The notes below the pieces were generated by a model. That model did no database searches. It saw nothing but the letters and a program-made list of their open reading frames with translations, and had not been told where the DNA came from. Source: a virus. Taken from it: a stretch of DNA of 28,224 nucleotides. The position numbers were made by a program, and so were the translations under genes. Positions 1 through 23,303 of this stretch are shown in pieces; positions within the stretch are counted from its first letter, which is position 1; each line of letters starts with the position of its first letter. The stretch is from IMG/VR virus record IMGVR_UViG_3300034190_001593, positions 1 through 28,224 of that record; one strand, 5' to 3'.

Positions 1-3000
1 TTAGAAAATAAAACGCTAGCTATGTTATCTGTATTAGATCCATTTTCTAAACCTAATTTAAAGCTTTTACTAAACATTGTTGAGCTTTTACCAGCCGCAA
101 TATCTTGCTTTTGCTCAAGAGTTAAATCACTTTCAACAGTTCTAGCTAATTCATTGGCTATGTTTCTATCAACAAGGTTTAATATACCCTTGATAACTTG
201 GCCTTCAGGTGATCTAGGATCTATTTGTATCTTTTTATCATCTTCTCTTTTGGGTCTTCCAATAGCGTCTAATATGTCTTGATTTGTTACACCTTGTTTT
301 AAAGACCAAGGAGATAACCCTGCTCCTTTCTTAATTCTAGGGTTTTTATCATATAATTTTTTTAAGATACTATTAGCTACTCCAGTTGCAGTACCCATTA
401 ATTTTTCAGTAGCAGCCTCTTGAACCGCTCCTTTTGGCAATGTTTTTCTAATATAGTCAATGTTCTTTTCTATGAACATAGCTCCTCTAGAGGTTTCTTC
501 TTTAGAAAGGTTCTTAGTAGAATCTAGTATTTTACCAGCAGGAACATTTGTAATCTCAGATAAAACATCAGTTGCTAGGCCACCGATTTTTTTGTAGCTT
601 AGTTTCTTAGGGTCAATGTCTTTAAGCTTCTCTTCGACCATCTTAGCAGCTTTGTCGTACTGCTCTTTAGACATTATCTTGGTTGCTTTAGTCAATCTAG
701 TTTCAGACCTTGCTTCTGTGTCGGCTAAATCAATTTGCTCTTCAATACTCATTGATTCATCAGCAACTTCCTGTACAGAACCTACTTCACCAGCAGCAAC
801 ATCTAAGCTTTTACCTTCTACACCAGCTTCTTTCTTATATCTGTTAACTACATCACCAATTCTATACTTTATAAGTTCATTTACAACAAAACCACCTAAG
901 TCATCGTTCGTCTCAGGATTAAATCTCATTAAACTCTTTTCATATAGTTGAGCTTTAACATCTTCTAAGAATATATCTTTAGGTTTACCATAGACATTGT
1001 CACCAACTACTCCATACTTATTAAGTTGGCCGTTAATTAAACCGTCTAATGTTTTACCAAATACTAGTTTTTCGTATACTTTACCAATAACTTGGTTATC
1101 ATACCTGCTTTTACTAGTTCCCTCTGGTACTAAAGCTTTTATTTCATCACCAAGTTCTTTATTTGCTTTACTAAAAGACACGCTTGATTCTTTTGAAACA
1201 GTTTTATCAGAGTCTTTTGTAACGCTTTTTATTAAATCCCCACTTTTAGCTTTTTTAATGTCAACCGTGGTAAGAGTACCATCTTTTATTTTTTTACCTA
1301 CGCCAACAACAAAGTTATATATATCTTGCTCTCCTTTAAAGTCAAAGTTGTAGTCTCCGCTAAATTCTTTTTGAATCATAACACCAAATAAACCAGATAT
1401 ACCTTTTGCTTTCTGAACATTAGTAACCTTACCTTCACTAACGTATTCTAGAAACCTAGATATAACTTCAGCTGGTATTATATTTCCAGAGTCGTCATCT
1501 ACACCGTCTTTTAAAAGACTATCGTGTACTTTCTTATCAGTCTTTTTAAGCGTTGATAATATCTGATTACTAACCTGCTTAAAAGCAGCATTGTTTGAAT
1601 CATTACCTAATAAATTCCAAAAAGCTTTATGACCAATCTCATGTACTTTTGTGTATCTTCTTTGGTTTGCTACTTGGTTTTCAACAACAGCAACTTGAGT
1701 ATCTGTTGATGGATTAGCGTACCCATCATTACCATTTTTTAAACCTATTGTTATTTCAGCTTTATCTTCTGGCGATAAATCTTTTACATTATCTAGATCA
1801 GCTATAGCTTCATCAACAGTTTCAAAAGACTTAAATCTCTTAAACACGTTGGAGTTTTTTCTACCTAACTTAGCGTTTTCTTCTCTAATAATATCACCAA
1901 AATACAAGTCATAAGCTCTGTTATCTACGTCTATATCGTTTGGTTTTTTACCATTTCTTTCACCAGTTAGCTCTTGCGTAGCTTGATCTATGTATTGATC
2001 ATGCTTCAAAGGCTGTAAAGCTTTAAATGCTTTGAACTCTGTTTCATTTTTCAATAAAGACGAGTGTTCTAAGGCCTTATCTCTGAGTGATTTAAGCGAA
2101 TTAAAGTCCGCGAGTAAAGGTTTTATTTGAGCGTTTTTTTCTTCAGTAGATAAATCCTTAGACTCAGATATAGCTTTAGCTTTATTCTGTAGAGCCGCTA
2201 GCTTGCTTGTTATTTCAACAATTTTGTTCGCTCCTCCAGACGTTAGGTTATTGTTTATTAAAGATTCTTGCTTTACAATAGCATCGTTTAATTTAGTGTA
2301 TTTATCAGCAATAGCTTCAGCATATATTTTAGCACCGCTCTCTGTTTGAGCTGTTGCCCATCTTTTAGACAAAGCATCAATATCAGATTGTATGCCTCTA
2401 ATATCGCTAAGAGCCGCATAATTAGACATACTAGAGTAATATAAACCTCTAAAATAAGGAGTTCCACCCATTAGCGTTGACATACCAAAACCACTGAAAG
2501 CAGCGTGTGCCATATTTTCAGTGAAAGGTTTGCCATCTATTAAGTTTTGGCCACCAGTAGTAAGAGCTTCTGCTCCAGACTCTACAATAACATCGGCTAA
2601 ATATCCTTTACCTTGTTCTTTACCCCACGTTTTAGCACTGTTTTCTAAAAGAGTTTCAGCGGCTTCTTTACCACCACTAATAAATCTCGTCTTCGCGTTA
2701 CGTAAAACTCTAGTACCTGACACAGCAGATAAAGAACCTTCTAATAGACCATATCCAAGAGATTTTAACCAAACATCACTGTTACTATACTTTTCTCCAT
2801 CGGCTAAATTTATGTTTTCGAAGCCTAACTCATTCATTTTGCTACCCATAGTAGAAGCACCTATCACCCAGGGAGCAGCAGTTCCACCAGAAGCTACCAT
2901 AGCGGCTATAATTGGTATCTGTGTAGCTGTTTCTTGTAGAGCAAATTGCATAAAATTACCACCGCTACTAAAAGCGTCATCAAAGCTAACGCTTCTTGCA

Positions 3001-4847
3001 TAAGTCTCTCTATCTTTACTAGAAAATGCAACCCAGTCAGCACCAAGCTTTGCAAATTTAGGAGAAAAAGCACCCTCAACATCACCACGTACAGCTTGTT
3101 CGACTCTTTCAACTAATGTAAAAGGATTAATCTCAGCGGTTAACCTACCTGCGCCCACTAATAAATCACCAGCACCTAAAAGAACTGAATTAGCTGCTTG
3201 ATCCCACATGTTGTAGTTTTTACCCGCTGCTATTAAAGACAAATCATCGTCTCCTATAGAAGAAGCTAAATCGCTTTGTTTTTTTAATCTATCATTTATC
3301 AATAAACTACCTGCTGTAGAGGCATCTCTACTGGCTTGCATTATTTTATAGTAATTGCTGGATATAACATTTCCGTTTTCTAGCTTTACTTGAGATTTAT
3401 CTAACATGTCAAGGTTTAAACCTAGCTTTTCTGCTATTCTTAAAACTTCATTTTGATTTTCAGGAGTTACAACTACACCGTCTCCGTTTTCGCTATAAGC
3501 TTTTTTGACATTGTTGAAAAGAAACTCAGTATCGTTATTGGTTAAGCGAGTTTGATCTATTATTGTGTTAGTTACGTCTAGATCTTTGTTAAACTTTTCA
3601 GTTTTCTTATTCTTAGAAGCAACTCCTCCTGCATACATTATGCTAGCGCTTATTTCTCCACTTTTTATAGCTAAATCTCTTTCTTTGAGTTTTAAATCAG
3701 CTAGTTTTTGTTGGTAATCCTGTTGACGCACTATGTCTCTAGCCGCTTTGTCTAATTCATCACTAGATATTTCAGGGTTCTTTTTAAGTAATATAGTTTT
3801 AGCTTCTTTTAATTTATTTTCTAAATCTTCTTTAGCTGCTAATTTATTTCTATGTGTATACCCGTGAGAAGCATAGGAAGCTCGAGCATCAGCGTATTTT
3901 TCAGCCGATGTCTTAGGTTTATTAGCTTCATCTAAAACTTCAAAATAGTTTGGGTTTTTTAAAGTTTCTTGCTTAATAACTTCTTCACCTTGCTTTATAT
4001 TTACGTTGGAATCTTCCCAAGTATCATAGGCTTTTTCAGCTTGCCTACTGTTTCTACTCCAATCATAAGTGTTTACAATATCTTTGTTTTCTTTTATAAA
4101 GCTTTTTAGTTTGGTTAAATTTTCTGAAGCAACACCTCCTTCTATTTCTAAAGGTATGTCTATAGATTTATAACTAGAACTACCCTTTTCACCTATAGAT
4201 ACAGTCATAGCGTCTAAATCAACACTAGGCATACCTGTAAAAGGATTTAAACCTCCTATCGATGTTTCTTCGAAGTTAATTCCACTACCTTTGAACATTT
4301 CGCTAAAAATGGGTACAGCTTGCTCTTCTTCTTTTTGAAACACATCCATACCGACTGAGTCGTCAGTTTCGAATTTACCGCTTTCTTTTTTATATTTTAC
4401 ACCGTCAAGTGTTTTTAATAAGTCATCGATAGTGGCGATAGAGTCTTTTTTATCGTACTGTTTGTCTACTTTTTCTTGCTCAGAACCTTTATATGGAACG
4501 TTTTCTTCAAAAAACTCACTACTTTTTATTTGAGAAGTATAGTCTGTTTTAGGCTTTGGTAATTCCGAAGAAGTATCTTCCGATTCTAAATCCGTATCTA
4601 CTGCTTGATTTTCTGCTGTTACAGGTGCAGTCTCCGTTGCAACAGCTTCCGTCTTTACTGGTTCGATCGACCAAGCGTTTTTAAACGTATCTGAGTCTGT
4701 TTCAGCAAACAAGTCGTTTTCTCTACCTAAATCGTATAATTGACCTTTAGCGGTATCATCTGCGTTAGAAAACATTTCTATAGTAGTAGCTGAAGTTATT
4801 AAACCCTCTTCTAAGTATAATTTGTATAGTTGTTCTATTTTATCCAT
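1..4847 (-). CDS. Giant internal virion / ejection-type protein with HExxH motif (C-terminus cut by window edge)
   Basis: This frame is open from an ATG at 4847 to the window edge, giving at least 1615 residues with no stop. It starts MDKIEQLYKLYLEEGL. Roughly residues 45-100 are acidic and low in complexity. A long, mostly helical Lys/Glu-rich region follows, then a Gly/Ala-rich hydrophobic stretch at about 625-675 that might cross or bury in a membrane. The motif KVHEIGHKAFW places HEIGH at residues 1069-1073, and AEVISRFLEYV follows at about 1126-1136, offering E1127 or E1134 as a possible third zinc ligand. That is the HExxH...E layout of zincin metallopeptidases. Size, position last in the structural run and the two preceding genes suggest a role like T7 gp16 or the crAss cargo proteins: carried in the virion and ejected with the DNA. 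I see no lysozyme motif in the part present. The coding call is certain; the function is inferred. Confidence 0.85.
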   Translation of the reverse strand, partial: MDKIEQLYKLYLEEGLITSATTIEMFSNADDTAKGQLYDLGRENDLFAETDSDTFKNAWSIEPVKTEAVATETAPVTAENQAVDTDLESEDTSSELPKPKTDYTSQIKSSEFFEENVPYKGSEQEKVDKQYDKKDSIATIDDLLKTLDGVKYKKESGKFETDDSVGMDVFQKEEEQAVPIFSEMFKGSGINFEETSIGGLNPFTGMPSVDLDAMTVSIGEKGSSSYKSIDIPLEIEGGVASENLTKLKSFIKENKDIVNTYDWSRNSRQAEKAYDTWEDSNVNIKQGEEVIKQETLKNPNYFEVLDEANKPKTSAEKYADARASYASHGYTHRNKLAAKEDLENKLKEAKTILLKKNPEISSDELDKAARDIVRQQDYQQKLADLKLKERDLAIKSGEISASIMYAGGVASKNKKTEKFNKDLDVTNTIIDQTRLTNNDTEFLFNNVKKAYSENGDGVVVTPENQNEVLRIAEKLGLNLDMLDKSQVKLENGNVISSNYYKIMQASRDASTAGSLLINDRLKKQSDLASSIGDDDLSLIAAGKNYNMWDQAANSVLLGAGDLLVGAGRLTAEINPFTLVERVEQAVRGDVEGAFSPKFAKLGADWVAFSSKDRETYARSVSFDDAFSSGGNFMQFALQETATQIPIIAAMVASGGTAAPWVIGASTMGSKMNELGFENINLADGEKYSNSDVWLKSLGYGLLEGSLSAVSGTRVLRNAKTRFISGGKEAAETLLENSAKTWGKEQGKGYLADVIVESGAEALTTGGQNLIDGKPFTENMAHAAFSGFGMSTLMGGTPYFRGLYYSSMSNYAALSDIRGIQSDIDALSKRWATAQTESGAKIYAEAIADKYTKLNDAIVKQESLINNNLTSGGANKIVEITSKLAALQNKAKAISESKDLSTEEKNAQIKPLLADFNSLKSLRDKALEHSSLLKNETEFKAFKALQPLKHDQYIDQATQELTGERNGKKPNDIDVDNRAYDLYFGDIIREENAKLGRKNSNVFKRFKSFETVDEAIADLDNVKDLSPEDKAEITIGLKNGNDGYANPSTDTQVAVVENQVANQRRYTKVHEIGHKAFWNLLGNDSNNAAFKQVSNQILSTLKKTDKKVHDSLLKDGVDDDSGNIIPAEVISRFLEYVSEGKVTNVQKAKGISGLFGVMIQKEFSGDYNFDFKGEQDIYNFVVGVGKKIKDGTLTTVDIKKAKSGDLIKSVTKDSDKTVSKESSVSFSKANKELGDEIKALVPEGTSKSRYDNQVIGKVYEKLVFGKTLDGLINGQLNKYGVVGDNVYGKPKDIFLEDVKAQLYEKSLMRFNPETNDDLGGFVVNELIKYRIGDVVNRYKKEAGVEGKSLDVAAGEVGSVQEVADESMSIEEQIDLADTEARSETRLTKATKIMSKEQYDKAAKMVEEKLKDIDPKKLSYKKIGGLATDVLSEITNVPAGKILDSTKNLSKEETSRGAMFIEKNIDYIRKTLPKGAVQEAATEKLMGTATGVANSILKKLYDKNPRIKKGAGLSPWSLKQGVTNQDILDAIGRPKREDDKKIQIDPRSPEGQVIKGILNLVDRNIANELARTVESDLTLEQKQDIAAGKSSTMFSKSFKLGLENGSNTDNIASVLFS

Positions 4848-4861
4848 TGTTTACACTTTTC

Positions 4862-6424
4862 TTATTTAAAAATTTGATCTCCTTTGTTAACTTGTTTTGA
4901 CTTGAACTCTTCGTATGTGCCAACATCTTCTAGCTTACCACTAGAACCTGCTTTCTTCTTAGCTACTTGATAATCCCTATAAAGCATTAATTCTTTTTCA
5001 AATTTTCTTTTTTCAGGTTTTTGATTTTTATTTGGATACTTTAGTCCAGCGAATTGTCTTATACCAACATCGCTACCTAGATCTAAGACCTGTACCTTCG
5101 TATCTTGCACCATATCTCCAGTATCGTCATCCTTCTTTAGTTTTCCGGTAGGTATTCTAAGCTTTATCTTATTATCACTTGCAGCTTCCGCGGTAGCTAT
5201 TTTGCCAATACCTTTAATTGTTAAACCTTCAAAGAAACCAGAAGGATTGTTGAATATATCAACAACATCAGTTTGTATTTCGCCAGTTACCTTTTCAGAC
5301 TCTACTTGCTTAGCTTTAAGATCATCGTAATATCTTCGTTCAGTAATAGACATTTGACTTTTCTTTATTGGTCTTGATTTTTCTTCCTGTGGATTAGCAA
5401 AGCTATCTAACCAATGCTCTTTGTATTCTTCTTCTATTAAAGGATACATTTCAGGTAAGTTCTTTAAATTCACAGAGCCTTGAAAACCTAAGATGTTATT
5501 AGCCAATGATATTAAATCGTTGTTACTCATAGAGCTAACATTTGCAGCTATTTCAACACTGGCTGCTTCACCAACTTCTTTACGCTTTAAGGGTCTAGAA
5601 TATGTTACTAATCCAGTCTCTTCGTCTTCGTTTATTTCCATCGGACCGTAAGCATTGTCATTTGGAATTAGCTTTTTAGTAGTAGGATCTTGCTGTGTTA
5701 AAAAAGTATCTCTCATAGCTTCCCATTGAACTTTTTGATTAGGAACTCTTTGAACTACACCACCGTTTTCTTCTGCCATCAACTGTAACTGTGCGCTACT
5801 ATATCTTCTAGATTCACCACCTTTAGGTGTTATAACCACGAAAACTTCAGGTCTACCTGTTTTAGTATTTTCTTCAACTATAACATCTCTGGTCCCAGCT
5901 ATTTTATCCGTCCAAACTTGAGTGTTTTCTAAGTTGTATCCAGGCGCGTAAAGATCAACGCCATCTGCTTTACCAGGTCTTGTTAACGCTTCCTTAAGAC
6001 CAACTGTAGCCATTGTAAAGTTCTGTAAAGCTGCCTGCACCATACCAGGAAGAGCTTTAATATCTCTTTGTTTAGTTTTTACAGCGGATACTTCATCGGG
6101 ACTCAATCCACCATTGTCAATTTTATCTGTTAATTCAGAATATTGTCCAACATAAGGATTTAAAGCACCCTCAATATTAATGCTTTTGTTATTTCTAACA
6201 ACTTCGTCTCCTTTGCTTAATACCTCATCCTCTTCTAACTGCGCCAACCTTAATCTTTCACTTCTTTCTTTAGCTAGCTTTTGAGCTTTTAGTGTTTCAG
6301 CGTCTTTAACTGCTTTGTAGCTTTTAGCAACTCTCTGAAAAGTGCCTGATATAGTGTTTTGAAGATTAGCAAAATGCTGTGCACTTTGAGTATCTACTAC
6401 TTGTTGTGGGTTTATATAACTCAT
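4862..6424 (-). CDS. Internal virion protein (T7 gp15-like role), 520 aa
   Basis: This is a 520-residue soluble-looking protein. Residues about 20-80 form a charged helix rich in Ala, Lys, Glu and Arg (AKSYKAVKDAETLKAQKLAKERSER is split by few breaks), likely a coiled coil. The rest is mixed alpha/beta with many Lys/Glu pairs and a basic tail. Its start ATG overlaps the stop of the upstream 262-residue gene in an ATGA junction at 6421-6424, implying translational coupling. The giant protein starts 14 bases past its stop. A mid-sized soluble helical protein between a small Gly/Ala-rich membrane-active protein and a giant protein matches the order of the podovirus ejection set (T7 gp14-gp15-gp16). 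No motif proves this; the role comes from context. Confidence 0.8.
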   Translation of the reverse strand: MSYINPQQVVDTQSAQHFANLQNTISGTFQRVAKSYKAVKDAETLKAQKLAKERSERLRLAQLEEDEVLSKGDEVVRNNKSINIEGALNPYVGQYSELTDKIDNGGLSPDEVSAVKTKQRDIKALPGMVQAALQNFTMATVGLKEALTRPGKADGVDLYAPGYNLENTQVWTDKIAGTRDVIVEENTKTGRPEVFVVITPKGGESRRYSSAQLQLMAEENGGVVQRVPNQKVQWEAMRDTFLTQQDPTTKKLIPNDNAYGPMEINEDEETGLVTYSRPLKRKEVGEAASVEIAANVSSMSNNDLISLANNILGFQGSVNLKNLPEMYPLIEEEYKEHWLDSFANPQEEKSRPIKKSQMSITERRYYDDLKAKQVESEKVTGEIQTDVVDIFNNPSGFFEGLTIKGIGKIATAEAASDNKIKLRIPTGKLKKDDDTGDMVQDTKVQVLDLGSDVGIRQFAGLKYPNKNQKPEKRKFEKELMLYRDYQVAKKKAGSSGKLEDVGTYEEFKSKQVNKGDQIFK

Positions 6425-7209
6425 ATTGAATAAAAGTTTTGGGTTGTTGGTAGATTAGGAGTGTTAATCCCTGTTCCAAAAGAAGACAAGTCATAATTAC
6501 CCATTGAAATAGTTGAAGGCGTGGTTGAAGACGAGTCAAAGGCTCCAGCTGAATACATACCACCAACAGTGCTTACAGCACCTCCGACGGCTCCGGTTAT
6601 AGCTCCAGTTACATCTGAACTTGCTTGAGCTTCTCTAGCTTGAGCACCTGCTATCTGAGCAGATATTCTATCCATTTGAGCTCTTTCTCTATTTTCCTGT
6701 TCTCGGTACATAAATTCTTTACCAGAAGCTTCTAAGGTTTGCATTCTTTGTTTCTCAGCCATTTGTAATTGTTGTGATCGCTGTTCGCCTTGAGCTTTAA
6801 GTTTTTCGTTGTTAACTTCTTGTTGTTCTATACTAGCTGAAACACCTTTTTTAGATTGTAAAGCTGCTTGAGCTAAAGCCGTAGCTCCACCCGCACCAGC
6901 ACCTGTTGATCTTACCGCGTCTAAAGTATTAGCTAGCGATATATCAGCTTGTTCAGCTTGCATTTCTGCTGCCTGAGTAGCAACAGCTAAATTATCAAAT
7001 GGGTTTTGAATCATTGAAGAAAGATCTGTGGATCCTTCGTAAGGATTTATAATTTCTTGTCTATTATCTTCTAGTTTTTGTAGTTTTCTACTAGCAACTC
7101 TTCTTTCGTGAGCCGCTTGCTGCCTTCTTTTGTTAGCTGCTGATGCCCCAAAGATACCAGAAACTATACTTAATCCGCCAGACATTAAACCGGCTGTTAC
7201 CATTGACAT
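6421..7209 (-). CDS. Small internal virion protein (T7 gp14-like role), 262 aa
   Basis: The 262-residue product starts MSMVTAGLMSGGLSIVSGIFG, a Gly/Ser-rich hydrophobic segment at about residues 4-24. A second one, GAITGAVGGAVSTVGGMYSAG, lies near 203-223. Between them is a long Gln/Ala/Glu-rich coiled coil (about 25-195) with alternating Glu, Gln and Arg. The architecture of two glycine-rich membrane-compatible segments around a long helix recurs in podovirus internal virion proteins such as T7 gp14, which is ejected into the outer membrane. It follows the cupin-like gene after 3 bases and overlaps the 520-residue gene by 4 bases. The coding call is firm. The ejection role is inferred from composition and gene order. 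Confidence 0.82.
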   Translation of the reverse strand: MSMVTAGLMSGGLSIVSGIFGASAANKRRQQAAHERRVASRKLQKLEDNRQEIINPYEGSTDLSSMIQNPFDNLAVATQAAEMQAEQADISLANTLDAVRSTGAGAGGATALAQAALQSKKGVSASIEQQEVNNEKLKAQGEQRSQQLQMAEKQRMQTLEASGKEFMYREQENRERAQMDRISAQIAGAQAREAQASSDVTGAITGAVGGAVSTVGGMYSAGAFDSSSTTPSTISMGNYDLSSFGTGINTPNLPTTQNFYSI

Positions 7210-7656: not shown

Positions 7657-9090
7657 TTAATAAGATGATTCTGAGTAGTTTGAAGATACAGCAAACAATT
7701 CTTTTGCTCCACCAACATCCGTAGTGTTATCTGTAGATACTTTAACTGTGCAATAAAAACCTTTAATTCCTGACATACTATTTCCCCATAAAACTTCTTC
7801 TTGCCTAGCCACACTGTGGTTTACTATATTGGCATGATATTTATTTTCTTTTCTATTGAAACCAGCTCTTTGTGGAACCCCGTTTTCTAAATAATAACCT
7901 TCGTTGTAGCTGTAAACAGCAGGTCTGTTAACCACTGAGCTATTAGCTGTGTCAGAACTAGAGCTCCATAGTCCTGTAAAAACATCAGTACCAGTTTCGT
8001 CAGAAGTGAAGTCTGTAACTTCCCATCCGTTACTTCCTTCGTAGCTAATAGTTTTAAAAACTTTAGATAAACTAACTTTTGGATTAAACACGAATGTTAT
8101 TGATGACTTAAACGACTCTCCATAGAATACATTTCTATTAGAATTTGAGTCGTAGTGCCTAAACAACTCTCCGTTCTTTAAGCTGTAAAATTTACTTTTT
8201 AAACTAACAATTTGATCTGGTTTATATGTAAAGAAGCTTGTCCAGCCTTTAACATCTTCATCAAAAGATAACGTCTCGTAGTTGTCTATAGCTGAATTAA
8301 ACTTAGTTTGAGACGATAAAACATACTGTTTGTTGTATATGTCCCAACCACCTATCAAAACACCTTGCAAAGAGCCTGAGTCTATTTTTTTGAACTCGTC
8401 TCTAAAGTAATCAGACATACCATATTTTGATATATCAGTTAAACCGTCCATAGATAATCTAAGAACAGCATTTCTGTCTTTATCCGTGAAATACTTTCTG
8501 TAACCATAAGTAGCAAAACTTTCAGGATTACTACTTATTCCGAAATTACCGGCGTAAGGTATTATTGTACCTATAGTAGTATTTACATTTGTTATGCTGC
8601 CACTTCCCTCTGCTGAGTATATAGCATCTTTATCTATAAGGGCTCTAGATACTTTTGATTGTTGAAAAATAATTAAGTTTGTATCTTCTGCATACAACTT
8701 CTGTATACTACCGTTAGCTGGGTCAGCTGATTTAGTTATCTCTTCTCCAATTGAAAATACATTAGTATCATTTACACTAGTTCTAGAGTTAAACACTCCT
8801 GAGTATATAAGAGAATTCCCTCTAATACTAGAGTTTGGGTCGTCTTCTACTAAATAAGCTTTAACGCCATAGTCTACGCTAGTGTTATTGTAGCCACCTC
8901 TTATTCTAGCTTCTTCAATAGACCAATTACCATCTATAGGGTAGTTTGTATATCTAGGGTAACCTCCTAGCTCTTGTGGCACACCAAAAGATCCGTTCCA
9001 AACAGGAGTTATGTCTCCACCACTCTGCTGCTGCAACGTTTTTTTGAGTAAAAAAGAGTTGAAATATTTTACTTCTATAACTGCGCTCAT
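7657..9090 (-). CDS. Tail stabilisation / muzzle-like beta protein, 477 aa
   Basis: The 477-residue product is beta-rich, with repeated aromatic and Gly/Asn turns. Recognisable stretches include FSIGEEITKSADPANGSIQK near residue 127, LYAEDTNLIIFQQSKVSRAL near 148 and ATYGYRKYFTDKDRNAVLRL near 203. These read like blades of a beta-propeller of the P22 gp10 (tail stabilisation) or crAss muzzle class. It lies directly downstream of the 1332-residue gene, which carries the N-terminal signature of the same class, so the two may be partners or a split of a longer ancestral protein. No signal peptide or transmembrane segment is visible. The function is inferred from pattern and position. Confidence 0.8.
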   Translation of the reverse strand: MSAVIEVKYFNSFLLKKTLQQQSGGDITPVWNGSFGVPQELGGYPRYTNYPIDGNWSIEEARIRGGYNNTSVDYGVKAYLVEDDPNSSIRGNSLIYSGVFNSRTSVNDTNVFSIGEEITKSADPANGSIQKLYAEDTNLIIFQQSKVSRALIDKDAIYSAEGSGSITNVNTTIGTIIPYAGNFGISSNPESFATYGYRKYFTDKDRNAVLRLSMDGLTDISKYGMSDYFRDEFKKIDSGSLQGVLIGGWDIYNKQYVLSSQTKFNSAIDNYETLSFDEDVKGWTSFFTYKPDQIVSLKSKFYSLKNGELFRHYDSNSNRNVFYGESFKSSITFVFNPKVSLSKVFKTISYEGSNGWEVTDFTSDETGTDVFTGLWSSSSDTANSSVVNRPAVYSYNEGYYLENGVPQRAGFNRKENKYHANIVNHSVARQEEVLWGNSMSGIKGFYCTVKVSTDNTTDVGGAKELFAVSSNYSESSY

Positions 9091-9120: not shown

Positions 9121-12100
9121 CTAGCTTATAACTTCGAACAGCTTACCGCTAGTGCTTAATGTTGATTCGTTTACTGGGTTCCCTATACCGCTTAATCCGT
9201 TGCATGACGCCCAAGCGTTAAACGCACTGCTTCTATTGGAATTAAAAGACCAGTTATTAATACATGTGCCCGGGTTTTGCATTTGTACAGTAACAACGTT
9301 GTCATAGTCCAATCCACCCGCAGCGGATCCGTTGTATATATACGTACCATTCCAGCTAGAAGGATCTACAATGTTTTCTACTAGAAATTCTACGTAAGTA
9401 TATTCAACACCTGAAAAAGCTACAATTTTTTCTTTAGGATAACCACTACTTATTACTACTCCTAACCTAGCTGTTATAGTTAAAGTTTCAGAAACCTGTC
9501 CAGCATCAGCTACACTCACAGTTATAGTATAGGTATCCGCAGGTATTCCCATATTAGATCCAGGAAGAGCAATATTAGCGACTACTAAATTTCTTTGGTA
9601 TTCGTATACAGGTTGTTCACCTGGCCCTATTTCTACTATTTCAAAAAACCCAGTAGTATCTAAACCAGTGCTAGAAATAGCGCTGTCTATGCTCCATGTT
9701 ATTTCACTGTATTTATTTGGATTGTCGCTAATGTTTGCTCCGTTTGTAGCTGTCATTTTAGCTATTATAGGTGTAACCGTGTTACTTTGTATTTCAAAGT
9801 CCTGTGAAGGTGTTATAATGGGTGATTCGTTGCTCATTAACACAGACTGCTGTATGTTTGTTGTAACGCCATTTACAACTGCTCTAAAATTAAATGTAAA
9901 ATACCTGCTATCAGCATCACTTCCGTAGTAAACATTGTTTAAACAGTCTTGAGTTACTCTAATGTTCCATTCAGGAATATTTGGAGACCCGACAAGAACA
10001 AAGTATGGGTTAGGTCCTTCGTTAACGTTTACTCCTATCGATGGTGGAACTCCGTTAACTACAGACACTAATTCAAAAGACTCAACACCTACGGTTATGT
10101 CAATACCAAAAGAATCAACTAGCCTAAAAGGAGCTTGAAGTATATACGCGTCAGCTTCTATGTTTTCAGTAAAAGGGTTTGTATTAAAAGGAGCTATACC
10201 GCTACTAGCACCTGCGTTGTCTTCTATTATAGAGTTTAAGTTTGATATAAGCCCTGAAGTTGAGGTCTCCCAAAAAATATCTAATCTAGATTGAACTGGG
10301 TCTGTTTCTAAAACAGCTAAAGTTTCTATTGTTGAGTAAGAAGTTTTATTAAAACTCAGTATAGTGTCATTTGGTATTGTTACGTTTTGATTAACATACA
10401 CCGTGTTCGTTCCTGCTTCGAGTTCTACTGATTCAACTATAACTCTCAAACCAATAGGCATCTGCGGCCATGTCATTGAGCTTCCTCTCTCTATTACACC
10501 CGTATATGTGTTATCAATACTTATGTCAGTCTGACCGTTTGTGGTTGAGTTAGTGGTAGCTTCACCTATTGAAGAAATAACACTATTATTTATACCAAAA
10601 GTACCGCTATTTAATTGAGATGTTATTATTTCGGCTATAAAAGGATTAGAGTCTGATTTGTAAAAACCATAATAAGCATTTGCAGAGTCAGTTACAGGTA
10701 TGATAGAAGTGCCACCACCGGTGAATTCTTTTATGTCAAACATGTCTTGAAGATCTTCTATAGATGAAGTCGTAAACGAGTTTTTTCCAGGAAAGTATTG
10801 TGAATTATTAGACGACACGCCAAGCGTGTTTTCTACTCTACCATGTAGCACAACGGAACTTCTAAAAGTTTTATCCTGAGGTCCTACTTCTGATAAGTCT
10901 CTAGGTACTTTGTTTATATTGTCGTTTATTAAGGTAATAAAAGATTTATTAGTGTCAATTAAAGGAGTTATAGAATTACTAGCATTGTTAAAAGGTAAAG
11001 CTTTCATAGCTCCAGCGGTGTAAACATTATAGTAATCTTGCTCTGTCTGTTTAACAACTATCTTGTAAGAATACCATCCTAAAGGATTATATGATAAGCT
11101 GTCAACATCGTCGTTATAAGCGTTAATACCTAAGTTAATAGGATCATTTACTAGTATTTTTATAGAATCTCCAGGCCACTCTATAGGATCGTAGTCGTTA
11201 TCTTTATAACTAGAATACAGTGTAGAACCTAAAAAGTAGCTATCACCTATCCTAATAGAGTCTTTGTTACTTGAAAGTATAACTGTTGACTGTCTACCAA
11301 ACTTGTCCGATAGTACAAAACCAGCTTGATAGCTTCTATTAGTTTTCAAGCTACTGCTAGGGTACTCTACAATACTAGTCGTATTTGTTTCATCTCCTAT
11401 TAATTCAAAGAAAAGCTCAACCCCATCAGCGAGGGTCACATTCTGGCTAAGTGTTAACGCTGGGCTTGTGCCGCCTGTCTTGCTAATTATTACTGTTCTT
11501 GGAGAAACAGGTATACCAGCACCTGTAACTAAGCTACCAACATCTACATTATCCTCTGGAGACGCGTTAATTAAGTTAACAACATTATCATCACTAACAG
11601 CTCCGTTGACTATTCCTGTAGCTTTCTTTAAGTTGAAGCTAGATTTATCCGTAGCGTTTACATTATAATTAATGAAAGCAGGTGGAGTCGTTTTGTTTTG
11701 GTAATTACCGTAAACAACTCTATTGCTTATAACTTCTTGAGCTAACGCCTTCACAGGTACTTTATCATAAACTCTTATAGTCTCGCTATTAGGTAGAGTT
11801 TTATATGGTTTTTGAGCTTGATAATCATAACTGTATATTTTTTCATCATGATTAGCTAAATCTATTATAGGTATTGTTTCTACAACCTTTACAGCTAAGC
11901 TATCGGATTCTTTGTATAATATATCTATCTCTGAAACATGCAAATCACTAGACAAGGAGCTGCCTTTCGAAGGAAGTGGCAACATTAAGGTTATTTTATT
12001 AACCTTGTTTTCCATAAAACCAACCACTGTTGAGTTGTAAGCCATCTTTTCGTCCCCATCATCAACACTGTTGTTCACAAAGTAGCCATCTTGCTTTGGT

Positions 12101-13119
12101 ATAAAACACGGTTGAGTGAATGGAGCGATTATAGAATATTCTCCGTCTACGTACTTAAATCTGTAACTGAATCTAGCGAACTTATCTTCCAAGAAATCTT
12201 CATCACCATTATAATCTTCTTCGTAGTAAGGGTTCGGGTCTACAACAAGTAATGTCTTCAGCGGTAGAGCTTCAGGTATAGCTGGAGAAACACCTAATAA
12301 AGCCGCTACTGGCGGGTTGTCCTCTGCAGGTGTAAAGGTACTAACGTATACAGGTGGGTTAAAAGACTTTAAAGCACCTGTAACTGGATCCAGGTGTTTG
12401 ATCTCCGCTCCAACCCTAGGCTGGTTTGGATATATTTCAAAACTAACACTCCTTACAGCGAACGAAGTCAAACCAACTGTTAGAGCATTTGTGGTTTCGC
12501 AAGTTCCTCCATAGGGTAGAGCTTTACTAACTACGTCTTTCATAGTTGTTTCATAGTTGCCCAAATATAGCTGATTCTCTTGAAATAACTGTATGGATTG
12601 ATAAGGATTATATTTAGCTACGGATATATTATCTTCGACAGTATAATAAGTAGCGTTGTTAGTTAGTTTTACATTTATCTTTCTAGGCTGATTTCTATTA
12701 TCTGTCCAAAACAATAAATTTTCTAAAAGATTAACACCGTGTATGGGATTCAGCTTAGAAAAGTTTAAGAAAGCTCCTTCGACTAGCTTTTCGCTTAAGC
12801 CGCTAACGGAGTTGTATTTATATATAAAGTTCTTAGATAAAGGATCGTAGGCTGAATTAGGGTTGTTTGTTAGAAAAACATATATATCACTATTCAGCTC
12901 GTCAGCCAAGCAACCTATAGAAGAAAGCTCTTCAACTGTAGGTTCAAAATCTGCAACTCTAATATTACCTAGTACGTTTTCCAAAGACCCAACATCTGAA
13001 CCTTCGGATTTACTAACTTGAGCATTTATTGCGTTTCTATATTCTCCAGATGGTACAAGTCTATCATCTAGGTCTTTGTTCATTTTAGACTTTATAAAAG
13101 CATTCTTAACTTCAGCCAT
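9121..13119 (-). CDS. Very large tail closure/stabilisation (muzzle-like, P22 gp10-class) protein, 1332 aa
   Basis: This is the largest complete gene in the window. The N-terminus, with SKMNKDLDDRLVPSGEYR at residues 11-28 followed by SEGSDVGSLENVLGN, is a recurring signature of large structural proteins in crAss-like and marine podoviruses, usually annotated as stabilisation or tail proteins. Blade-like repeats follow (GVNLLENLLFWTDNRNQPRK near 128). The C-terminal third (about residues 950-1250) turns into immunoglobulin/cadherin-like beta segments such as ADTYTITVSVADAGQ, suggesting exposed decoration or adhesion domains. It probably caps the short tail and holds DNA in the packaged head. 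Its start lies 6 bases after the upstream adaptor gene. The protein class is a moderate-confidence inference from remembered sequence patterns. Confidence 0.82.
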   Translation of the reverse strand: MAEVKNAFIKSKMNKDLDDRLVPSGEYRNAINAQVSKSEGSDVGSLENVLGNIRVADFEPTVEELSSIGCLADELNSDIYVFLTNNPNSAYDPLSKNFIYKYNSVSGLSEKLVEGAFLNFSKLNPIHGVNLLENLLFWTDNRNQPRKINVKLTNNATYYTVEDNISVAKYNPYQSIQLFQENQLYLGNYETTMKDVVSKALPYGGTCETTNALTVGLTSFAVRSVSFEIYPNQPRVGAEIKHLDPVTGALKSFNPPVYVSTFTPAEDNPPVAALLGVSPAIPEALPLKTLLVVDPNPYYEEDYNGDEDFLEDKFARFSYRFKYVDGEYSIIAPFTQPCFIPKQDGYFVNNSVDDGDEKMAYNSTVVGFMENKVNKITLMLPLPSKGSSLSSDLHVSEIDILYKESDSLAVKVVETIPIIDLANHDEKIYSYDYQAQKPYKTLPNSETIRVYDKVPVKALAQEVISNRVVYGNYQNKTTPPAFINYNVNATDKSSFNLKKATGIVNGAVSDDNVVNLINASPEDNVDVGSLVTGAGIPVSPRTVIISKTGGTSPALTLSQNVTLADGVELFFELIGDETNTTSIVEYPSSSLKTNRSYQAGFVLSDKFGRQSTVILSSNKDSIRIGDSYFLGSTLYSSYKDNDYDPIEWPGDSIKILVNDPINLGINAYNDDVDSLSYNPLGWYSYKIVVKQTEQDYYNVYTAGAMKALPFNNASNSITPLIDTNKSFITLINDNINKVPRDLSEVGPQDKTFRSSVVLHGRVENTLGVSSNNSQYFPGKNSFTTSSIEDLQDMFDIKEFTGGGTSIIPVTDSANAYYGFYKSDSNPFIAEIITSQLNSGTFGINNSVISSIGEATTNSTTNGQTDISIDNTYTGVIERGSSMTWPQMPIGLRVIVESVELEAGTNTVYVNQNVTIPNDTILSFNKTSYSTIETLAVLETDPVQSRLDIFWETSTSGLISNLNSIIEDNAGASSGIAPFNTNPFTENIEADAYILQAPFRLVDSFGIDITVGVESFELVSVVNGVPPSIGVNVNEGPNPYFVLVGSPNIPEWNIRVTQDCLNNVYYGSDADSRYFTFNFRAVVNGVTTNIQQSVLMSNESPIITPSQDFEIQSNTVTPIIAKMTATNGANISDNPNKYSEITWSIDSAISSTGLDTTGFFEIVEIGPGEQPVYEYQRNLVVANIALPGSNMGIPADTYTITVSVADAGQVSETLTITARLGVVISSGYPKEKIVAFSGVEYTYVEFLVENIVDPSSWNGTYIYNGSAAGGLDYDNVVTVQMQNPGTCINNWSFNSNRSSAFNAWASCNGLSGIGNPVNESTLSTSGKLFEVIS

Positions 13120-18686: not shown

Positions 18687-21092
18687 CTAGCTAGGTCCAA
18701 ACTGCTCTAATCCAAACCCATCTAAATTATCGTTTCCAGCAGACTCAAAGTTTTTTGGTAATAGATCATTCTGTCTTTGGTCTATAAGCTCTGATTGCTG
18801 GGTTCCTTGTATTTTTACTCTTTTGTCCTTTCGGTCTTCTATTTCTTTCTCTTTAGAAGCTTCTGATTGTATTCTTGCTTGAGCCAATTGCATTTGATAA
18901 CCAAATTCCTCAGCCATTAGATCTCTTTTTATTTGAGCTTCTGTTTGCATTCTTTGTATCTCAAACTGAGACTTAGCTTGCTCTATGCTAACTTTTTCTT
19001 GAGTTAAAGCCTGCTGCTTCTGAACTTCAAACATAGCTGCTTTTTCTGCGGATTGAGCATTAGCCTGTGCTTGAGCTTGAATATTCTGTTGTTGAGCCGC
19101 TTGATCTCTTGCTATTCTCTGTGTTTGTCTTAGCTTTAAAAACTGATTAGCCATTTTGACATTTTTAATCTCTCTTATGTCAATAGCGTCTGATAAAGCA
19201 ATCGCACCTGTCTGTAAAGCCATTTGAACATTTTGTTCTAGTAAGGCTTTAACCTCATCCTCGGGTTCTAACTCTAAAAATATTCCAAAGTCGTGCAACT
19301 GAAGATTTATTAACTCTTCAAGAGTTCTAGTGTTAAAAGTGCTTATAGAGCCACTAAGCGAATTCTCCGTTAATGGATTTTGTATTAAATCAGCAGCTTT
19401 TAAACTTATGTTCTCACACATCCTTAGCGTAACATATAGTAAAGACTCCATTAAGTGCTTAGTAGCTGTGTTAGAAGCATTTACTGCCATCTTTTGTAAA
19501 CCAACTAAAGCGTCTTTGTCTGGAGCGCTTCCGTCTCTAGCTTCATTCAGTCCTGTTACATCACGAATCATCTGTAGGTAGTACTGATAAGTACCAATTA
19601 AACTTTGTATTTTAGCTTGGCCCGATGATGTTGATAGCTCTTGAATAGGCACTTTACCCGCGTTCATTCCGCCTTCTTGAGTAAGCGACCTACCAACTAC
19701 GGATCCAGTTTGAAAATACATATTCAATGCTTCTGCTGGATTATAGTTAGTTCCGTTACCTAAATCAACTTCAGCTAAACCATCCATATCTAAGAATACT
19801 CCATCAGGAACTATTCTAGACATAACTTGCTGTAGCTTTAAGTGAGTAAGCTGTATCATATCTGCAAATCCAGTTATCTTACTAACTAAAGACTCTATAC
19901 GTCCTTTATACATTTTAGGAGCTGTAATACAGTAATTCATTTCTACTTTTGTGGTGTCTGCTACTGGCCTAGTCATATTTTCAGCCATTTTCCACTCTAA
20001 CATAGTATTGTTACCTAGTACCTTCGCGCCAGTGTATAAAACCTCTATAGTTCTATGTACTCTATCAAAATTATCATTAGGTGGTGGATTGAATTCGTCT
20101 GTTTTTTCTAATGTTTTTTCTAGACCTTGATCAGTTTTCTTTATCTTAAAAACCTGGTTCATATAAGTCTTATACTCAAAGTACATAACTTGAACAGTAT
20201 TTTCATCATAATTACCCCAACCAGTTACAAACTGAGAGTTACCTGGCATTTTCTGTATCTTTTCTAGTTCTTCTTCAGGAAGATCTGGAAACTGCTTTTT
20301 AAGCTCTGGTATTGTTATGGCTTTTACTTCTCCAACATAGTATATGTCTTCAAAGTCAGGATCCTCTGTGTATGAGTAAACCATATAGGCTGGATCAACA
20401 TAGTCAATTTTTATACCTTCGGTTCTATCAAACCTTGTTTTACATGCTGCTATTCCTAATACAGTTAAATCAGTTGCTAATCTTTTTTTAGTCTGATTGT
20501 ATCTGTTTTTCGCTAAGACGGTATTAATTACTTCTTCTTCCGCGACCTCAACGTTTTGTTTATAGGTCATTTGCATATGAAGATCTAATTCATCTCTACT
20601 TTCGGGTAGGTTATCGATGTCATTAGTCATAGACAAATCAGCGCCTAACTCGTTCTTTATGTCTATCAACAAATCTTTAGTGTTCATATCTCTCTGAACA
20701 GCTGCAGCATAATCTGTTCTACTCTTTACAGAAAAAGGATCTTGAGCAACTGCCTTGATGTCATAAGATTTATTACTCATTCCATTCACGACGATATCTA
20801 CAAATTTAGATATAACTGGAACAGGTGTCCAATCTAAATTAAGATAAGATAAATCACCGTTTATAGACAACTCATTCTTATACTTTTGAACGCTTTGCTC
20901 TCCACGAGCGTATAGTCTTAACTGATGAAAATTACTGTAACTTTGAACGTATCTGTTACCAGACCTACCTTCTTGAAACCATTCTCCTTCAATCGCTCTA
21001 GCGACTTGCTCACCATACTCTAGGCTAGCTTTTACTTCGTCGCTAACTACTTGGTTAGGAAATGAACTATTAGTGTTAGTCTGTATCTTCAT
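18687..21092 (-). CDS. Portal protein, 801 aa
   Basis: The 801-residue product follows the large terminase after 3 bases. It has the features of large podovirus portals: an N-terminal mixed domain including YLNLDWTPVPVISKFVDIVV near residues 83-102, a central region with ETRDGSAPDK-like helix breaks (GLNEARDGSAPDKDALVGLQ) and a long C-terminal Gln/Ala/Glu-rich coiled coil from about 650 to 760 with repeated IQAQAQANAQ and QIKRDLMAEE elements. That helical 'barrel' projects into the head in P22-type portals. The size fits crAss-like portals. Twelve such subunits would form the DNA gate and the docking site for terminase and adaptor. Confidence comes from position and architecture. Confidence 0.88.
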   Translation of the reverse strand: MKIQTNTNSSFPNQVVSDEVKASLEYGEQVARAIEGEWFQEGRSGNRYVQSYSNFHQLRLYARGEQSVQKYKNELSINGDLSYLNLDWTPVPVISKFVDIVVNGMSNKSYDIKAVAQDPFSVKSRTDYAAAVQRDMNTKDLLIDIKNELGADLSMTNDIDNLPESRDELDLHMQMTYKQNVEVAEEEVINTVLAKNRYNQTKKRLATDLTVLGIAACKTRFDRTEGIKIDYVDPAYMVYSYTEDPDFEDIYYVGEVKAITIPELKKQFPDLPEEELEKIQKMPGNSQFVTGWGNYDENTVQVMYFEYKTYMNQVFKIKKTDQGLEKTLEKTDEFNPPPNDNFDRVHRTIEVLYTGAKVLGNNTMLEWKMAENMTRPVADTTKVEMNYCITAPKMYKGRIESLVSKITGFADMIQLTHLKLQQVMSRIVPDGVFLDMDGLAEVDLGNGTNYNPAEALNMYFQTGSVVGRSLTQEGGMNAGKVPIQELSTSSGQAKIQSLIGTYQYYLQMIRDVTGLNEARDGSAPDKDALVGLQKMAVNASNTATKHLMESLLYVTLRMCENISLKAADLIQNPLTENSLSGSISTFNTRTLEELINLQLHDFGIFLELEPEDEVKALLEQNVQMALQTGAIALSDAIDIREIKNVKMANQFLKLRQTQRIARDQAAQQQNIQAQAQANAQSAEKAAMFEVQKQQALTQEKVSIEQAKSQFEIQRMQTEAQIKRDLMAEEFGYQMQLAQARIQSEASKEKEIEDRKDKRVKIQGTQQSELIDQRQNDLLPKNFESAGNDNLDGFGLEQFGPS

Positions 21093-21095
21093 TTA

Positions 21096-23303
21096 TTAAA
21101 TAATTTTTGATGATGAACCAGTGTTATCATATTTTTTTATACCTAAATTTATTGCTTTGTATTCTTTCTTAGCCACTGGTATGTATCTGTTCTTGTTGCA
21201 AGCCATTAAAGCTAATCCAGAACTTATAGACGCATCGTGTTTTGTTCTGTTGTTAATATCAAACCTAGCCCAATCTTCTAACGTTCTTTGAAAGTACATA
21301 TTACCAAAACCGTTCTCTGTTGAGCCGACACTTGTGTTTATGTATGTTTCAATAGCTGAGGCGTGCGCTTGCTTAACATCTTCGCTAGAGTTAGGTATTC
21401 CACCAATATCTTTTTCTGTAACCGATAACTTGTTCCAAACCTTATCAGGTCTATTCATTGAAAAACCTCTATAACCTCTTCTTTTAAAATGATATAATAA
21501 TCTAGGCTTATTGTTTTCACATAATAAAGGCATTCCGTAGAATACGCAGGCCATTAAAACATCTTCAAAAAATATCTCAGCTGTCTGAGGTCTAGCTATA
21601 TACTCTAAAAAGAATTGATTAGGTGGCACGTCTTCCATGCTAAACTTAGTTAAACCGGATAAAGATCCATTAGAACCTCTACCATCAACCGTACCTGATA
21701 TATCATAGCTATCACATCCAAATGCTCCACAGTGATCGTTACCTGGGTACTTAGTCCCATTCTTTACTATCACACGATTTTGAAGATTATAAGGCGGAAC
21801 CCAAGATATTCTGAAGTTACCATCTCTATTAGGTATAAATATAACTTTAGAATCTTTAATTCCATTCTCCCATTGAAAACTACCAATAGTAACAGAAGCT
21901 ATATTATTAAGATCAGCATTGTGATCTATTTGTTCGTATATTTTAGTTAAATTAAATAAAGACTCTTTAGCCTCGTCTCTAAAAGCGTGTTCAGTAGTTC
22001 TAGGAAACTGTCTATAGAATTCGTTCAAACCATCCTGGTCATCTTTTAATCCTTCTACTTCATTTTTCCAGTACTCTAATACGCCTATTTTTATTTCATC
22101 ACCAAAAGAATCTACTGTTTTTTCTTTTGGGTTTTCGAATACAGGAAATCCATAAGAATCAATGTATCCTTCGTAATTCCATTCCATAGGAATGAACAAA
22201 CTATAGAGTCCTGAACTAGTCTGTCCGTTGCTGTTTCTTTTAGTAACATCTGAACTATTGTATAATTTTTTGAAATTAGCACCACCTTTATCTAAAGCGT
22301 TTGAGGTTGAACCCATCATACACTTTCCAATAATTCTAGAACCTAATCTTAAACACGTTTTTGTAACTCGCCAGTTGTTTAATATGTTGTTTGGTCTTTC
22401 CCATTTTCCACTTTCATCGTGTACTAATAGCCTTAGTTTTTCTCCATCGTACGCGTTATCACCGGTGTTTTTCCAATCGACGGTGGTATCAAGACCGTTA
22501 AGACTTTCGGGCCTAACGGTTTCAGTGATGGATCTTCTTGTAAGCTTTGACGCGGGGACACGATAAGCGATCTCGGTCTTTGGTCTGTCCATACCGTCTT
22601 GTATCGGTTTGAAGAAGAACGGGTAATTAACGCTGATAGGTACCACTTTATCTGTGAACATTTTCTTCGCATCGGCGCCAGATTTGGACAAAATCCCAAA
22701 CCGTGCATCGGACGATATTGTTGCCATGTTAACGGTCTCAGCTGAAGCCATGAACGAAAAACCTGACCTTCTGTTCTTGAGATATGACATTCCATAACAA
22801 CGGCTGTCTGCTTTGCAAGCTTCCCAGAATATAAAGAATAATCTGTTTGATTCCCTAAAGTCTGGCTTCCCAACATCAATTTTGGAGTACTGCAAGTAGA
22901 TAAAATGAGTACCAGTAATATAAGTAGGCTTGTCCTTGTTAACAAACCAAAAACCTTGCTCTCTTCTTTTAAACTCTTGATCAATAAATTCATACCATTC
23001 TTCTTTAAAATCTTCTTTATAATTCTTCCAATCAAAAATGGTCTTTATACCTTTAAGCTCTTTAGGATATTCCTGAGCCATCCATTTATTTCCCTCAAAA
23101 GTAACAACGTCATTTTCTAAAGGTAAAGCTATTTTAAGATTCTGTATCTCATATACTTCACCAACCTCACCAGTTTTACTGATGACAACCATGTCGTGCT
23201 CTTCGTTATACCCATACTCCCATTTCTTATACTTGTTCTTTTTCTTTAAGACGCTAGCTTTTATATGGTTAGGTATTATTCTGTATAAACTCTGCTTATA
23301 CAT
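21096..23303 (-). CDS. terL: Terminase large subunit (ATPase and nuclease), 735 aa
   Basis: The packaging motor. Residues about 170-185 carry a degenerate Walker A region (YLKNRRSGFS). LRLLVHDES at 290-298 is a Walker B strand ending in D296 and E297. IGKCMMGSTSN (325-335) looks like the coupling motif. The nuclease domain begins near 515, with FGCDSYDISGT giving D531 and D534, acidic residues E576, E580 and D581, and KHDASISSGLALMA giving D690, the RNase H-like metal-binding set of terminases. The gene abuts the upstream 91-residue gene and precedes the portal by 3 bases. About residues 185-290 are encoded by DNA clearly richer in GC than the rest, as if exchanged from another phage. The missing canonical Walker A glycine pattern is common in this phage group. 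Confidence 0.93.
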   Translation of the reverse strand: MYKQSLYRIIPNHIKASVLKKKNKYKKWEYGYNEEHDMVVISKTGEVGEVYEIQNLKIALPLENDVVTFEGNKWMAQEYPKELKGIKTIFDWKNYKEDFKEEWYEFIDQEFKRREQGFWFVNKDKPTYITGTHFIYLQYSKIDVGKPDFRESNRLFFIFWEACKADSRCYGMSYLKNRRSGFSFMASAETVNMATISSDARFGILSKSGADAKKMFTDKVVPISVNYPFFFKPIQDGMDRPKTEIAYRVPASKLTRRSITETVRPESLNGLDTTVDWKNTGDNAYDGEKLRLLVHDESGKWERPNNILNNWRVTKTCLRLGSRIIGKCMMGSTSNALDKGGANFKKLYNSSDVTKRNSNGQTSSGLYSLFIPMEWNYEGYIDSYGFPVFENPKEKTVDSFGDEIKIGVLEYWKNEVEGLKDDQDGLNEFYRQFPRTTEHAFRDEAKESLFNLTKIYEQIDHNADLNNIASVTIGSFQWENGIKDSKVIFIPNRDGNFRISWVPPYNLQNRVIVKNGTKYPGNDHCGAFGCDSYDISGTVDGRGSNGSLSGLTKFSMEDVPPNQFFLEYIARPQTAEIFFEDVLMACVFYGMPLLCENNKPRLLYHFKRRGYRGFSMNRPDKVWNKLSVTEKDIGGIPNSSEDVKQAHASAIETYINTSVGSTENGFGNMYFQRTLEDWARFDINNRTKHDASISSGLALMACNKNRYIPVAKKEYKAINLGIKKYDNTGSSSKII

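Follow-up and report, generated by a model that had tools for sequence, protein, structure and literature searches.

Zincin-like metallopeptidase (MPTase) domains are known in the polyvalent proteins of phages (Iyer et al. 2017, PMC5512222). In the accessible portion of that article, these zincins are proposed to process the polyvalent proteins that hold them; P1 DdrB is cited there as processed, the N4 RNA polymerase as unprocessed, and the MPTase domains are linked to lethal factor by profile search. The words Cellulophaga, Flavobacteri, P22 and linker do not appear in the article, and the same portion of it describes neither FSK joints, nor a recognition sequence, nor near-universality within one phage group. 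A structure preprint on N4 (PMC12633501, accessible part) notes an HExxH domain in the virion RNA polymerase and leaves its function unassigned. In phicrAss001, the cargo proteins gp45-gp50, encoded after the muzzle gene, are large proteins that are stored in the capsid and tail and leave the particle ahead of the DNA (PMC10172136); the words protease and peptidase do not occur in the main text of that paper.

The window, that is the whole stretch of DNA analyzed here, is a virus record of 28,224 bases with its genes on the minus strand. Terminase and portal are encoded at the right end, followed by a structural protein, the muzzle and small genes. The leftmost frame, of 1615 codons, runs off the contig. 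The genes concerned are:

21096..23303 (-), terminase large subunit (phrog_6681, 2e-162)
18687..21092 (-), portal protein (phrog_6547, 1.1e-145)
9121..13119 (-), muzzle protein, N-terminal part, in a separate frame (phrog_14478)
7657..9090 (-), muzzle protein, C-terminal part (PF25729, PF25731, phrog_14478)
6421..7209 (-), 262-residue protein, found upstream of the giant in 65 of 89 loci
4862..6424 (-), 520-residue protein adjoining the giant, with 73% identity in relative L010
3..4847 (-), giant, probable virion cargo protein by synteny, 1615 residues in one open frame that is cut off where the contig ends

The terminase and the portal protein each match 87 records, from phages of Flavobacterium, Cellulophaga, Tenacibaculum and Maribacter and one podovirus; among the matches listed, these are Elemovirus, Pervagoviridae, Pachyviridae and unclassified records. 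The muzzle frame 7657..9090 scores above the curated Pfam cut-off of 27 with both PF25729 (45.6 bits) and PF25731 (28.5 bits), and a muzzle gene near the probable cargo gene, as here, is a mark of a crassvirus-type ejection module. The muzzle is apparently split over two consecutive frames (477 and 1332 residues), each matching its own part of one PHROG: positions 185-334 of the phrog_14478 profile align with frame 9121..13119 and positions 910-1223 with frame 7657..9090. A single long gene occupies this place in elemoA (43721..48133) and MW202828 (16998..21653).

The position of its gene, behind a crassvirus-type muzzle where crassviruses encode ejected cargo, gives good support, by analogy, to the giant being a virion cargo protein that is probably ejected ahead of the DNA. 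The window giant is like the phicrAss001 cargo in that its gene lies behind the muzzle. Homologues of the genes upstream of it are present at 82 of the 89 loci that carry a relative of the giant, several of these loci being the same contig counted twice. The giant gene is the last of the structural block in elemoA, MW202828, Panino, phi38:1 and phi18:3; the arrangement differs in Gundel_1. The phi18:3 giant (gp123), whose annotation comes from experimental MS/MS, is weakly homologous to residues 631-1001 of the window giant (E 1.3e-07). Muzzle position, synteny and this weak homology back a giant virion cargo protein, in keeping with the initial annotation of a giant internal protein, for which ejection ahead of the DNA had been put as a condition. 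No Pfam or PHROGs family was found above threshold in the incomplete window giant, and it had no match at E ≤ 1 in 50,697 phage records. The crassvirus cargo proteins differ from it in this respect, no sequence match with the window giant having been seen in that search.

The peptidase site lies in the second half of the available frame:

1263..1823 (-), zincin-like peptidase domain, about residues 1009-1195, delimited from alignments and the AlphaFold model
1629..1643 (-), HEIGH, residues 1069-1073, two predicted His ligands and the predicted catalytic Glu1070
1467..1469 (-), Glu1127, predicted third zinc ligand, Glu in 81 of 81 sequences
1440..1472 (-), AEVISRFLEYV, residues 1126-1136, a helix in the model (model residues 126-138)

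A zinc metallopeptidase-like HExxH...E site had been proposed from the letters alone, on the basis of KVHEIGHKAFW and AEVISRFLEYV. Both segments were found where they had been placed, in frame 3..4847 (-), the former being residues 1067-1077 of the giant, and Glu1127 follows the first histidine (His1069) by 58 residues. The proposal has gained from the comparisons with relatives and of folds, with predicted ligands that proved invariant, a third ligand attributed to Glu1127, and zincins as fold neighbours.

Relatives were gathered starting from L002, which covers the whole giant, followed by L010-L017; a further search confirmed 129 stretches, and 80 of these were retained. HExxH is present in all 80, including each of the 26 that were retrieved solely by the downstream pattern [GAS]KDVYNF. 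The Glu1127 column contains Glu in 81 of 81 sequences, at a position absent from all search patterns. Throughout the 81-sequence alignment, only Gly1042, His1069, Glu1070, His1073 and Glu1127 are invariant; after removal of 8 duplicates, the 73 distinct rows retain as invariant columns H1069, E1070, H1073 and E1127 only. The non-conservation of His and Glu among homologues that was to count against the site was absent. The window's form of the motif, HExGH, is common to L105, L113, L145 and L161 (72, 51, 29 and 38% identity), and the four site residues are all kept in this subfamily of five, with 29-72% identity to the window. The domain codons of the relatives are under strong purifying selection, with dN/dS values of 0.015-0.195 over 51 non-independent pairs. 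A first scan of viral contigs with the zincin segment of the window yielded no confirmed relative, and the same segment gave two weak Halorubrum virus rows only (E 2). A match of the L002 query to a Klebsiella phage internal core protein (E 0.3) was not used after inspection of the annotation. The scan of genome contigs gave no confirmed relative either, and therefore no bacterial or prophage copies are claimed.

As these searches had partly used the motif, a second sample was anchored on the muzzle gene. From at least 598 loci, 80 were taken, of which 43 had at least 1100 giant residues; the other 37, with a short or absent giant, had been dropped beforehand. HExxH was found in 42 of the 43 giants, some of which are near-duplicates. 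The forms are divergent, including HEFLH, HEVGH, HEYFH, HELGH and HETGH. The exception, L121, has EELFH at the place of HExxH (giant residues 1017-1021), a natural loss of the first ligand that is useful for comparison.

The AlphaFold model of the window domain, built with 73 sequences, is of moderate quality (pLDDT 69.7, pTM 0.64); it supersedes an earlier nine-sequence model (pLDDT 55). Foldseek searches with the model against the PDB and viral models gave no match at E ≤ 0.001, and the top viral row, named large polyvalent protein-associated, was not significant (E 0.6). The best VIA-align row was the protease domain of anthrax lethal factor, with a Z of 7.5, below the trust line of Z 8, and an rmsd of 3.6 over 138 aligned residues. 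Further lethal factor rows were followed by 3dl1 (Z 4.0) and 4l7a (Z 2.8), which are metal-dependent hydrolase or peptidase entries. We take lethal factor and 3dl1 to belong to the zincin class, and the ranking of the modelled domain, weak by itself, is consistent with a zincin fold. In Pfam, at a loose ceiling of E 1, the 73 members matched Peptidase_M78 (32 members, best E 1.8e-07), DUF3267 (22) and SprT-like (16), and the window domain itself matched no peptidase family at E ≤ 1. The 73-row profile retrieved from the sequences of solved structures two zinc endoprotease chains at E 1.5, too weak for use. The family is a zincin by its pattern and by several weak signs combined, without a single decisive match.

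With a model of moderate quality and no significant Foldseek match, HExxH might be a chance motif outside any zincin domain. This explanation, exceedingly improbable in our estimation, is already contradicted by the invariance of the motif together with a distant Glu, by the neighbor-anchored sample and by the low chance expectation, which is 0.003 HExxH from the composition of the window giant. The 71 zincin-bearing giants contain 74 HExxH against 0.37 expected, a figure that is partly selected as these giants came from a zincin query. The window giant very probably holds a real zinc peptidase domain.

The domain shares several features with the polyvalent MPTases as given in the accessible text of PMC5512222. 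In both, HExxH lies in one helix and the Glu in a later helix, and both reside within very large proteins from late gene regions. The link to lethal factor is common to both, by profile search for the polyvalent MPTase and by fold comparison for the window domain. Like the polyvalent proteins, the window giant belongs to a late virion gene region and has a zincin domain; it differs in that no polyvalent-type partner domain was found by Pfam and PHROGs in the giant, which is incomplete. The C1 subdomain of the N4 virion RNA polymerase (PMC12633501, accessible part) is also of the HExxH zincin type, in a giant podovirus-virion protein that is ejected into the cell.

The last structural gene of elemoA (gp21, L004) encodes an HExxH and aligns to the window family with an hhalign probability of 96.2% (E 2.5e-09). 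The elemoA giant also carries DUF3293 at residues 1323-1392, upstream of HExxH (Pfam, 1e-12). MW202828 (L003, MW202828.1) has two HExxH, HEFGHW at residue 1615 and HEFGHV at residue 2500, that are distant from the window family (hhalign 7.0 and 55.4%). The giants of Panino, phi38:1 (gp101) and phi18:3 are devoid of HExxH, and the domain is therefore not essential across the wider kin. DxDGD is the polymerase motif of N4-like virion RNA polymerases; a motif of this type is absent from the 1615 residues of the window giant, whose C-terminal part is missing. No peptidase is reported in these giants in the accessible parts of PMC8776804 and PMC10136315, and nothing on crassvirus zincins was found in the open-licence papers searched.

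Comparison of the window with L010 revealed the following pattern within the giant:

1163..4577 (-), exchanged cassette, residues about 91-1229, unlike L010 between flanks that are both alike; holds the protease domain
66..1163 (-), module bounded by the two FSK sites (residues about 1229-1594), conserved in the sequence comparison

The first 90 residues are alike, with 42 identities among the 50 positions of the first block; from residue 1251 the two proteins are near-identical (48, 50, 44 and 49 identities per 50). Residues 101-1200 display just 4 to 15 identities per block of 50. At the DNA level, similarity ends at window position 4577 and restarts at 1163 with 88.9% identity. The zincin occupies the same place in each cassette. 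The domain, near-universal in this group but strongly diverging, is swapped within a cassette of about 1,100 residues between conserved flanks. L011 and L002 differ by a short second variable block after the zincin, at residues about 1001-1150, within a mostly 65-95% identical protein, suggesting exchange at more than one level.

Such an exchange between near-identical flanks, together with the many divergent forms around HExxH in the muzzle-anchored sample, would suit an effector that, once ejected, cuts a host protein involved in the envelope, defence or transcription, the divergence and exchange then reflecting host variation. Host targeting is listed as a possibility in the accessible text of PMC5512222. 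Yet 42 of 43 giants keep the domain, which makes it more core-like than accessory, and it has as neighbors joint motifs that are restricted to the region downstream of it in the giant. A host effector is rated as rather unlikely.

These joint motifs are FSK tripeptides, of which the window giant has exactly two:

1167..1175 (-), FSK at residue 1225 (SVSFSKA), 156 residues past the first His and 4 before DNA identity with L010 resumes
66..74 (-), FSK at residue 1592 (TMFSKS), where the similarity to L002 comes to an end

In the 71 giants, FSK occurs 128 times after the domain (60 distinct contexts) against 31.2 expected, and 24 times before it (15 distinct) against 17.8 expected, the 140-residue offset used in these motif statistics being our choice. 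Rearrangements of the three letters do not behave in this way, with the exception of KFS, the enrichment of which is taken to be mostly part of KFSK. A longer form, [ILV][KMS]FSK, is found at 50 sites in 32 of the 71 giants, with all 50 downstream of the protease and none upstream. MFSK as a strict and universal cleavage site was dropped, as it is present in few giants.

The motif was defined on this first sample. In 35 further giants, from the same phage group and reached via the neighboring gene after removal of 7 giants, including two first-sample contigs, FSK was found 48 times downstream (28 distinct) against 11.9 expected, and 11 times upstream (10 distinct) against 9.7; the longer form occurred 18 times downstream and once upstream (L126). 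This second sample repeated only the enrichment and the asymmetry. In the first sample, to which the boundary test was confined and in which BLAST boundaries and giants are non-independent, all 19 distinct downstream [ILV][KMS]FSK sites are no more than 12 residues away from a homology boundary, as compared to 9.0 ± 2.1 for random positions. LSK is also nearer to boundaries than random (p 0.006).

Serine is encoded at these sites by TCN in 27 and by AGY in 33 of 60 cases. As both codon families are used, selection at the FSK joints acts on the protein and not on the DNA. A DNA-level recombination signal was rejected on this codon use, serine AGT being somewhat above background (25 against 15.8).

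The most likely function of the domain, held with about even confidence, is to cleave the very giant that carries it, in the vicinity of FSK-type joints or directly at them. Self-cutting is favored over a host target because FSK marks module joints downstream of the protease. The initial annotation had offered two targets, a host envelope protein and the phage's own proteins; FSK at the downstream joints makes the evidence lean towards the latter, a host envelope target being less likely. Its further suggestion that the site takes the place of the peptidoglycan-degrading domain of other podoviruses found no support as worded, with nothing pointing to a replacement.

The cutting of other structural proteins of the phage, during head or tail maturation, has also been considered. 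A total of 13 other window proteins were compared with PHROGs or Pfam (8 with PHROGs and 10 with Pfam, overlapping) and none was named a maturation protease, which would suit such a role; several window proteins have no family match and could hide one. FSK is not enriched in the other long frames of the same loci (26 against 27.8 expected), and we regard this explanation as highly improbable.

Somewhat less improbable, yet still to be doubted, is that the zincin fold persists in a structural or zinc-binding role, for instance docking in the virion, and is no longer enzymatic, with FSK as a linker or docking motif. The N4 virion RNA polymerase is packaged unprocessed and its zincin-bearing region is needed for encapsidation (PMC5512222, accessible text), and L121 has lost the first His and kept the rest. 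Against this, the catalytic Glu1070 shows the same invariance (81 of 81) as the ligands without being one of them, and docking alone would not need it. Other observations weigh against cutting at FSK. L121 keeps five FSK sites, three of the strong form. Downstream FSK is lacking in 7 of the 55 complete giants of the first sample and in 11 of the 35 giants of the second, incomplete giants included; where homologues were aligned, over 886 positions, F persists in 210 cases, S in 309 and K in 357. Because FSK is absent from some giants, often lost in homologues and kept by L121, it may have nothing to do with cutting and serve as a joint or docking motif, or it may be recognized by another protease. 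The giants of Panino, phi38:1, phi18:3, elemoA and MW202828 contain 7 FSK in total, none of the longer [ILV][KMS]FSK form by the printed contexts.

If the giant processes itself, zinc would be held by His1069, His1073 and Glu1127, and Glu1070 would activate a water molecule. The giant cargo would sit in the head or tail and be ejected ahead of the DNA. The domain would cut its own chain in cis, or a neighboring copy, on the C-terminal side of the domain and at or close to joints of the FSK type, here presumably at about residues 1225 and 1592. Modules would be released as from a polyprotein, possibly during packing or after ejection. The residues and their invariance, the purifying selection among relatives, the place of the gene and the enrichment of the motif at joints are observed; zinc binding, catalysis, ejection, cleavage site and timing we infer. 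Self-processing is the most economical reading, with perhaps an equal chance of being right or wrong. A more tentative extension is that the giants are DNA-phage counterparts of an RNA-virus polyprotein, with an embedded zinc protease cutting [ILV][KMS]FSK-type joints C-terminal to it; cut sites of one kind at the ends of the modules would allow cassettes to be exchanged while the ends of the protein stay conserved.

Giant phage proteins with zincins have been described before, with a processing role proposed in 2017 in the accessible text of PMC5512222, and the domain is not new in kind. As far as our searches of open-licence papers show, three features are undescribed: the near-universality of the domain in the group, the exchange between its divergent versions, and the joint motif. 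With its many homologous giants, which have a conserved protease and a candidate recognition motif, this phage group makes self-processing directly testable, including in cultured Elemovirus phages. If true, self-processing would explain how a narrow tail could deliver proteins that are too large for it, as separable modules. Three giants (L047, L054 and L059) have a second HExxH near the C-terminus, at residues 2151, 2173 and 2347, respectively.
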